A stretch of 64,000 nt of DNA from Halorarum halophilum (GTDB taxonomy: Archaea > Halobacteriota > Halobacteria > Halobacteriales > Haloferacaceae). Position numbers and translations under genes: made by a program. Positions 9,206-54,651 of the stretch are shown piece by piece (position 1 is the first letter of the stretch; each line of letters starts with the position of its first letter). Where the stretch lies: contig NZ_CP058529.1 of assembly GCF_013401515.1 (NCBI RefSeq), forward strand, positions 124,001-188,000. Direction: 5' to 3'. The notes below the pieces were generated by a model. It saw nothing but the letters and a program-made list of their open reading frames with translations, had not been told where the DNA came from and did no database searches.

Positions 9206-9257
9206 TTACCTCACACGCAGGGCGTGCTCGGCACTCACGGCCGGAGGGATTCGCCCA

Positions 9258-9314
9258 TGAGCACGGTCGCTTTCCTCCCTGCTCACACTCGCCACCGGAG
9301 GTGGCTCGCGTGAG
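9258..9314. repeat. 57-bp direct repeat, copy 2, overlapping the uspA start
   Basis: Second copy of the unit at 9149-9205; four substitutions separate them. The hairpin-forming half (about 9279-9314) covers the candidate start codons GTG 9301 and GTG 9310 of the following universal-stress gene, so it could affect translation initiation there. That consequence is inference. Confidence 0.85.
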
Positions 9315-9741
9315 CGATGTCCTACTGGGGACCGTCGTCGTCCCGGTCGCCTCGCCCGACGACGCCCGCGTGACGGCCACCGCGCTCGACGAGTACGTCG
9401 ACGACATCGACCGCGTCACCGTCGTCCACGTCATCGAGCGGTCGGGCGCCCCGCCCGAGGAGACGGGCGAGGAGGGCCGGACCGGCGTCTCGGACGAGGC
9501 GCTCGCCGCGTTCGAGACGGCCTTCGACGGCTCCGACGTCGAGGGTCGTCGGGTGTACTCGACGGACGTCGTCGACGGAATCCTCGACGTCGCCGCCGAG
9601 GTCGGCGCGACGGCGGTCGTCTTCACCCCGCGCGAGGGCGGTCGACTGGTGCGCTACCTCTCGGGCGACGTCGCCCTTCGGCTGGTCACCGAGGCGCCGA
9701 TACCGGTGATCAGCCTGCCGCGATCGGACGCGGAAGCCTGA
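9310..9741 (+). CDS. Universal stress protein (UspA) family
   Basis: 143-residue single-domain UspA-type protein. The first strand (VLLGTVVVPVASPDDARVTA) and the C-terminal PIPVISLPRS strand are typical. The usual ATP-binding G-x2-G-x9-G-S/T motif is not clear (region GGRLVRYLSGDVALRL), so nucleotide binding is uncertain. Both GTG 9301 and GTG 9310 are possible starts, and both lie in the second copy of a direct repeat. It is monocistronic. Confidence 0.75.
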   Translation: MSDVLLGTVVVPVASPDDARVTATALDEYVDDIDRVTVVHVIERSGAPPEETGEEGRTGVSDEALAAFETAFDGSDVEGRRVYSTDVVDGILDVAAEVGATAVVFTPREGGRLVRYLSGDVALRLVTEAPIPVISLPRSDAEA

Positions 9742-22842: not shown

Positions 22843-22874
22843 GGAAGCTCCCGCGGCTCCTTCCATTCCCACCC
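22843..22874. repeat. Structured extragenic palindrome, minimal copy (A)
   Basis: Layout GGAAG-CTC-CCGCGG-CTC-CTTCC then ATTCCCACCC. The outer GGAAG/CTTCC arms pair, the CTC/CTC triplets face each other unpaired, and CCGCGG is self-complementary. It matches the ends of copies at 46141 and 54375 with the interior missing. Confidence 0.65.
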
Positions 22875-46012: not shown

Positions 46013-46417
46013 TGATTGGTGTGAGGTATTGCTCGGGGTGGGAAAAGCGTGCCGCGATGATTGGTTGGATTCGACTCGCTCGATATCTCCGGTTCGTCTG
46101 CTTTCAGGGCCGACGCGTCCACGACCGTTCCCGTAACCTCGGAAGCCCCCGCGGCTGTCGACTCGGTGCGGCCGCTGTCGTTCGAAAGACTGCGCTTTGC
46201 GCAGTCTTTCGTGATGACGAAAGGCGCTCCGCGCCTTTCGAACCACGCTCCTCGCGCTCCCTTCGGTCGCGCTGCGGTGCTTGTCGGTCCGCGCCTTCGT
46301 CGACAGCCGCGGCCCCTTCCATTCCCCCCTGTGGGCGGTCGGGTGGGGTTTTCAAGTTGATCTCCGCGGTGGTACCAATGACCGAGAACGGAAAGCGATC
46401 GACGAATGATTTCAGAG
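46013..46417. other. 405-bp intergenic region dominated by a structured palindrome
   Basis: No gene. Holds the promoter region of the DUF6293 gene (to about 46060) and the 190-bp palindromic element at 46141-46330. From 46331 to the symporter stop at 46418 I see nothing distinct except an AT-richer stretch (46385-46430). Confidence 0.65.
46141..46330. repeat. Structured extragenic palindrome, long copy (B)
   Basis: Outer arms GGAAG (46141-46145) / CTTCC (46316-46320), a CCC/CCC 3x3 mismatch, then a 14-bp perfect stem 46149-46162 / 46299-46312, with conserved 3' flank ATTCCCCCC. Inside are two perfect hairpins: 46183-46195/46199-46211 and 46218-46227/46231-46240. A GGTGCTTG..GGTCC core (46277-46290) is shared with the copy at 54375. 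Confidence 0.75.
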
Positions 46418-54259: not shown

Positions 54260-54651
54260 GGGTGACGCTAGGGGCGGGCGGGGCATAAACGACGTGGGGG
54301 CTGGGCGTCCGGAGCGTGTGGATGTCAGTCGTCCTCGAGGGGATCAGCGGTGGTGCCTAGGGGAGGACCGCCTCGAAAGCCCCCACCTGCTCCGCTCCCG
54401 CGGACCGCGCTGCGCTCCTCGGCCTCCGGCCTGTGGTGCTTGCTGGTCCGGGGTTCGCGGAGCAGGTGGCCCCTTTCAGTCCCACCCGAACCGCACCACT
54501 CACGCTCGCTCCCGTTGGTCGCTCGCGTGACCGAGGCGCGGCCGCCGCGCGCCAGCCAGCTGATCCGTGATCGTGAGCAGTCGTAGGGCGCTGGATACTC
54601 ACGTCGCTGGGGACCGCACGTCTTTAGCCCCTCGCGGCCCGAGGGCGTCCC
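54260..54651. other. 392-bp intergenic region with structured palindrome C
   Basis: Divergent spacer of the zinc-ribbon/hsp20 unit and the radical SAM gene, without a gene of its own. It contains the 113-bp palindromic element (54375-54487). The radical SAM promoter is probably at 54628-54635 (CTTTAGCC), 17-24 bases upstream of its ATG. Confidence 0.6.
54375..54487. repeat. Structured extragenic palindrome, medium copy (C)
   Basis: GAAAG (54375-54379) / CTTTC (54473-54477), a CCC/CCC mismatch, then a 13-bp perfect stem CCACCTGCTCCGC (54383-54395) / GCGGAGCAGGTGG (54457-54469); 3' flank AGTCCCACCC. The stem sequence is unrelated to that of copy B though each pairs perfectly. Shares the GGTGCTTG..GGTCC core (54435-54449). 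Confidence 0.75.

Follow-up and report, generated by a model that had tools for sequence, protein, structure and literature searches.

The described elements closest to the repeat reported here are the bacterial REP sequences and REPINs, and the PATEs and SMRs of Haloquadratum. Hairpins with a variable stem and a constant foot, recognised by their structure on one folded strand, are also known from integrons (attC sites). REPs and REPINs with their RAYTs are palindromic and intergenic, occur in tens to more than 100 copies, form inverted doublets and imply a folded single strand (PMC3116915, PMC2817692, PMC3733652). RepRanger (PMC12306157) surveys archaeal REPs, in a text that does not mention halophiles. 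PATEs are palindrome-associated transposable elements that lack terminal inverted repeats and are related to IS605/IS1341 ends, while the short mobile repeats (SMRs) HqIRS42, HqIRS43 and HqIRS55 measure about 110 bp, have inverted terminal repeats, reach dozens of copies and leave no target duplication (PMC3119063).

The window, a 64,000-nucleotide stretch of Halorarum halophilum DNA, contains three palindromes at 22843-22874, 46141-46330 and 54375-54487 (copies A, B and C), which an earlier note had described as sharing one plan. All three are present, and they are members of a previously unnamed family of haloarchaeal elements of about 105-135 bp, of which many haloarchaea carry dozens in their genome. 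On the + strand, a full element consists of a GRAAG arm, an unpaired CCC, a 10-14 bp stem, a core, the complementary stem, another unpaired CCC, CTTYC and the tail ANTCCCNCCC. Confirmed features are the outer arm, the CCC/CCC triplets that face each other, the 3' tail and the core GGTGCTTG..GGTCC common to copies B and C, and the stems of these two copies, unrelated in sequence, both pair perfectly. A covariance model trained on 51 genus copies returned the same three elements as the best three matches of the window, with identical ends: copy C scored 103 bits (E 2.5e-20), copy B 65 bits (E 2.8e-12) and copy A 33.5 bits (E 1.7e-5). Since copies B and C are among the genome's copies and C-like copies were included in the training of the model, these scores denote family membership rather than independent discovery.

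Copy C (54375-54487, + strand) is a clean example of the full type I element, 113 bp long, as judged by the covariance model and by its folding energy, which on either strand is better than that of 200 out of 200 shuffles. Its outer arm GAAAG (54375-54379) pairs with CTTTC (54473-54477), and its perfect 13-bp stem is formed by CCACCTGCTCCGC (54383-54395) and GCGGAGCAGGTGG (54457-54469). The first core 12-mer, CTGCGCTCCTCG (54410-54421), is conserved in the alignment and is directly repeated by the second, CTGTGGTGCTTG (54431-54442); the right end (54470-54487) comprises CCC, CTTTC and the tail AGTCCCACCC. Copy B (46141-46330, + strand) had been taken for a single element. It is an element and its ends are real, but the segment 46178-46245 is a second, nested two-hairpin insertion by which it is enlarged. 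This 68-bp insertion, TCGTTCGAAAG..CGTGATGACG..CTTTCGAACCA, has its hairpins at 46183-46211 and 46218-46240 and interrupts the first core 12-mer. Around it, on the same strand, lie the covarying outer arm GGAAG (46141-46145) with its partner CTTCC (46316-46320), the unpaired CCC (46146-46148) facing CCC (46313-46315), the perfect 14-bp stem of CCGCGGCTGTCGAC (46149-46162) and GTCGACAGCCGCGG (46299-46312), the second core 12-mer CTGCGGTGCTTG (46272-46283) and the right end of CCC, CTTCC and the tail ATTCCCCCC (46313-46330). Copy A (22843-22874, + strand) is a collapsed, or mini, form made up of arms and CCGCGG only, GGAAG-CTC-CCGCGG-CTC-CTTCC-ATTCCCACCC. CCGCGG is self-complementary and a common stem base, so collapsed forms are explained by deletion between two stem bases. 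One orthologous pair joins a full element in the host genome to a collapsed form in a sister species, and copy A is therefore read as a deletion between CCGCGG stem bases. In some genera (L177, L206, L208, L222, L238 and L264), the core 12-mers are near-identical direct repeats, CTGCGGTCCTYG, around an apical hairpin, an arrangement that suggests paired protein sites.

The family extends well beyond the window. Exact-pattern counts, which are lower bounds, gave 62 matches to the motif CTTYCANTCCCNCC in the 4.28-Mb host genome and 49 to the longer 3' motif GGCCCCTTYCANTCCCRCC, the latter with 82 and 69 matches in two sister species of the genus. This longer motif was found in 81 of the 195 genomes of the order and its reversed control in none of the 195; 49 host matches against 0 rule out chance. 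The covariance model matched 65 of 99 haloarchaeal genomes, in 32 of 43 genera, with at least 35 matches in each of several genomes, model-based copy numbers again being lower bounds. All matches in the phylum sample fell within the order, and the 69 genomes outside it gave none. Among the carriers are Halobaculum, Haloarcula, Haladaptatus, Halorussus and Salinarchaeum, and copies also occur on plasmids of Natrinema and Halobaculum, where the matches are mostly unannotated. Phage records contained no match to the element and the single match in IMG/VR lacked its structure, and viral or phage carriage was rejected. Rfam 15 gave no match in the window at gathering thresholds and none at the element positions up to E 5. 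No description of the element's sequence was found in the literature, searched mostly in its openly readable part.

Stem pairing is maintained across this sequence diversity. In the 51 genus copies, 95.8% of cells in the arm and 13-bp stem are paired, whereas shuffles give 78.1 +/- 0.8% and slid arms 32-49%; double-change cells number 126, against 31.3 +/- 4.2 in shuffles, and 10 of the 13 stem pairs have changed on both sides. Copies from other genera behave alike (94.6% paired against 75.9% shuffled; 53 copies). Distinct arm pairs number 142 among 195 copies. Of 104 copies collected by a search that ignored the tail, 88 have GAAAG/CTTTC as outer arms and 16 have GGAAG/CTTCC, with no mixed pair, and the tail is kept to position 10 and random beyond it. 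Further copies in another genus carry the arm variants CAAAG/CTTTG and CGAAG/CTTCG. A core-anchored search independently recovered the arms and the CCC/CCC loop, the latter strictly kept in 45 of 57 copies, with exceptions that are mostly register shifts or inverted cores. The covariation that the earlier note had proposed to look for is thus strong and significant within the genus, in other genera and at one orthologous locus (see below). Its proviso, that the copies might be unique to their loci and their stems might not covary, does not apply, and the additional copies, the covariation and a strand-specific tolerance of mismatches strongly support a structurally constrained family.

This tolerance bears on which strand folds. 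If the arms were kept matched only as duplex, or if complementary arms were re-paired at random, each mismatch should be as frequent as its complement. On the written strand, counts over all copies are 56 A.C against 18 G.T, 52 C.T and T.C against 12 A.G and G.A, and 29 C.C against 2 G.G. These counts include related copies; with distinct arm pairs only, which reduces the effect of kinship though not fully, A.C, C.T and C.C total 130 and G.T, A.G and G.G total 31. A sign test by copy gave 74 against 15 (p 1.5e-10), and the asymmetry is seen at positions 5-12 alone (81 against 22) and in copies with a single mismatch (37 against 12). On the complementary strand the excess mismatches are G.T, G.A and G.G, the tolerated kinds, which indicates that one strand folds. 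From these sequence comparisons, the folded form appears to be the complementary single strand, 5'-GGGTGGGACTGAAAGGGG..GGGCTTTC-3' (5'-GGGTGGGACTGAAAG..CTTTC-3'). Both orientations relative to genes occur among the copies, making a simple mutational strand bias an unlikely cause. A replication-strand bias is weak in the host genome (p 0.045) and absent in genome G104.

A preference for one strand, together with covariation, is also what a structured RNA would produce. The complementary strand would then be transcribed, alone or within intergenic mRNA, and would act in mRNA stability, processing or protein binding, the many copies representing the spread of a useful cassette. Wobble pairs speak against this: the folded strand has 56 G.T pairs against 2433 Watson-Crick pairs, whereas tRNA stems of a sister genome have 24 against 281 (Fisher p 2e-6). 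This rarity of wobble pairs relative to tRNA stems is read as leaning towards DNA as the folded form, with RNA less likely.

A case for RNA comes from one orthologous locus, the spacer between an ABC permease gene and an ATPase gene. This locus was found in 17 species of a single genus, of which 15 carry the element in the same place and orientation and 2 lack it, and the element is retained in a spacer that is otherwise unalignable. Its folded strand is mRNA-sense, as it is, by a mild bias, in tandem-gene spacers generally (72 against 45, or 72/117; binomial p 0.016). Such a copy looks like retention rather than activity, and makes an RNA role the main rival to the reading that we prefer. Yet at this same locus, with 96.9% of cells paired over 40 pairs in 14 species, 19 pairs are doubly changed and double-change cells number 63 (20.5 in shuffles), against only 2 one-sided cells. 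The position of copies relative to genes is that of the background, the core can be inverted and no Rfam family matches, all of which tell against RNA. An RNA function is possible, if somewhat unlikely.

On the folded strand, collapsed copies match the canonical G-quadruplex motif GGGTGGGACTGAAAGGGGCCGCGGGGG, although copy A itself has GGAG where one G run should be. Under DNA parameters, the quadruplex was favoured over the hairpin in two of three collapsed copies. Several genomes, however, carry a TCCACCC tail that breaks the motif, and for this reason the G-quadruplex was not retained as a claim.

Within the genus, copies are always intergenic, and the orientation of flanking genes, called by a simple codon-usage script rather than taken from annotation, is near background. 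Orientation classes match the background too, and a transcription terminator or leader was rejected. In the genomes of the genus, all 18 closely spaced pairs stand tail to tail. An inverted right end lies within 460 bp downstream of 63 of 220 copies, a direct one downstream of none and one of any kind upstream of 4. Such doublets are mostly spaced by 17-29 bp in other genera; in this genus, where other modules intervene, the spacing is mostly 136-409 bp.

Orthologous copies at the ABC permease/ATPase locus are 73-97% identical and copies within a genome up to 91%, so that both are about equally divergent. At the orthologous sites L013 and L049, the sister species has a different stem; at L022, the orientation of the core differs, and an inverted core occurs in 10 of 167 copies overall. 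Elsewhere the orthologous site holds a collapsed form, a remnant or nothing. No site was found where the element itself is cleanly inserted opposite an intact empty target, the surrounding spacer usually differing too, and a search for an empty site by comparison of plasmid strains returned only the self-match. Gene-order breakpoints between sister species coincide with copies at L015/L016 versus L145/L148, at L019/L020 versus L152/L153 and at 39.8-54.3 kb of the window versus L170.

Such sites, with wholesale-different stems or cores or with inverted cores, could be read as those of a palindromic repeat in decay, with arms held complementary by DNA metabolism alone, through template switching, hairpin-templated repair or gene conversion between copies, with no recognition of structure. 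The large excess of double over one-sided changes, the collapsed forms and the rearrangement breakpoints at copies all fit that account. The CCC/CCC loop does not, as it should be the first feature to be corrected and is strictly kept in most copies; since it would not survive palindrome correction, pure correction is unlikely. Moreover, the tail and core lie outside the palindrome and are conserved, and a strand-symmetric correction does not predict the 130:31 asymmetry. We consider this account improbable. A BIME-like chromosomal site for protein binding or topology, a bound landmark with neither mobility nor an RNA role, would agree with the intergenic placement, the conserved core 12-mer repeats and the retention at one locus. 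Neither the strand asymmetry of mismatches nor covarying stems are expected of a duplex binding site, however, and the presence of the element differs at many sites between sister species, making this the least probable of the accounts considered, and a very unlikely one.

Copies and their surroundings also harbour other small repeats. Nested two-hairpin elements inside copies are of the type GTT-hairpin-GTGATGA-hairpin-AAC or are TTAC/GTTCACG-type doublets (46178-46245 of the window; L138 at about 9240-9430), and their inner stems vary as well. At one orthologous copy, G104 has the nested insertion and G195 does not, with a clean boundary. Downstream of the tail, a module termed T1 forms a second hairpin, GACTACCG..CGTGCACGCCG..CGGTAGTC, whose stem varies with compensation (L022 1520-1600, L013 1516-1590 and many host copies). 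Many copies are followed, 33-44 bp downstream, by a member of another repeat family, T2, CCTCCCCARCCGATT..CATCCCTCGCGCG..hairpin, which is also found on its own (L146 10680-10960, L138 4109, L144 16793). In G104, degenerate direct repeats of about 57-58 bp with further left-end motifs precede the left end (L148 14130-14250, L146 10550-10690, L128 and L133).

The earlier note had suggested single-strand transposition as in REP/RAYT systems, and predicted an IS200/IS605-type, RAYT-like transposase elsewhere in the genome. The analogy stands in the doublets, the intergenic spread and the folding of one strand; the predicted transposase is absent, with 0 matches to Y1_Tnp in the host genome. Seven other high-copy genomes (G104, G195, G133, G008, G026, G041 and G038) likewise lack the Y1 domain (PF01797), whose presence in 8 of the 15 genomes tested bears no relation to element copy number. 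TnpB (PF07282) has no match in the host genome, and Cas1 is absent from it and present in 3 of 10 carrier genomes. With Y1, TnpB and Cas1 all missing from the host, the RAYT idea fails here; a RAYT/IS200 enzyme acting in cis was rejected on the lack of Y1_Tnp in the host and other high-copy genomes, and a link to CRISPR, suggested by the likeness of GTGGGAYTGAAAG to repeat ends, on the lack of Cas1 in most carriers. No autonomous version was found: no copy has 300-8000 bp between complementary arms, low-copy genomes revealed none, and no transposase recurs among the genes neighbouring copies. Compared with a MITE of a DDE transposon, which would carry the terminal inverted repeats of a resident transposon and a target duplication, the arms differ from copy to copy and no autonomous partner lies near copies.

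Set against the described systems, the family resembles REP/REPIN-RAYT in being intergenic, of high copy number and arranged in inverted doublets. Membership was rejected on enzyme, tag and size: the host and several high-copy genomes have no Y1/RAYT, the foot is GRAAG or CRAAG with no GTAG/CGTC tag, and the length is 105-135 bp rather than 20-40. Here, too, stems are hypervariable between copies while loop and tail are fixed, in contrast to REP/REPIN. With PATEs the family shares a haloarchaeal host, a non-coding nature, palindromes, many copies and the targeting of palindromes by other small elements, but its arms are terminal and the host genome has no Y1 or TnpB match. The length and inverted ends of the SMRs HqIRS42/43/55 fit, a likeness drawn from their description and not their sequence; covarying stems do not appear in the accessible part of that description (PMC3119063). 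The variable stem, constant foot and single folded strand recall attC. However, the attC R box GTTRRRY/RYYYAAC does not occur, the ends being GRAAG..CTTYC with no R/L boxes, and copies are dispersed rather than set in cassette arrays.

Our preferred reading, to which we assign a probability somewhat below one half (about 0.47), is a REPIN-like, non-autonomous interspersed element that acts as a folded single strand with a putative trans-acting enzyme. A trans-acting protein would read the foot, loop, core and tail of the folded strand but not the sequence of its stem, which would explain both the free stem sequence and the preserved mismatch loop. The same protein would copy or move the element, in many cases as a doublet of inverted copies, in the manner of RAYTs acting on REPINs; stems would then be free to drift provided that both arms match, and collapsed copies would arise by deletion across the palindrome. 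The step from recognition of a folded strand to mobility is inferred by analogy with these systems; the failure to find a clean insertion, an autonomous relative, a recurrent transposase or a clear replication-strand bias, and the copy retained at the ABC permease/ATPase locus, weigh against it. The host genome encodes no recognisable Y1 transposase, TnpB or Cas1 that could be this enzyme. More doubtful is a broader version, also drawn by analogy, in which a haloarchaeal single-strand hairpin system would span the class and possess its own undescribed enzyme, reading foot, loop and tail rather than stem, as in REPIN/RAYT or attC/IntI but without Y1 or IntI chemistry. In that version, the GGG-rich folded strand, with its GGGTGGG tail and GGG/GGG loop, might adopt a quadruplex-duplex hybrid fold in a cytoplasm rich in K+.

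A repeat present in about two-thirds of the sampled haloarchaeal genomes, with clear covariation, has been nameless in the searched papers and in Rfam. Its stems diverge both within genomes and at single orthologous loci, which makes it a natural experiment in the maintenance of complementary palindrome arms. If an enzyme moves the element, that enzyme lies outside the known single-strand transposases; if the element is an RNA, it would be among the most numerous structured RNAs in haloarchaea. As a host of nested hairpins and a marker of rearrangement breakpoints, it also bears on genome plasticity.
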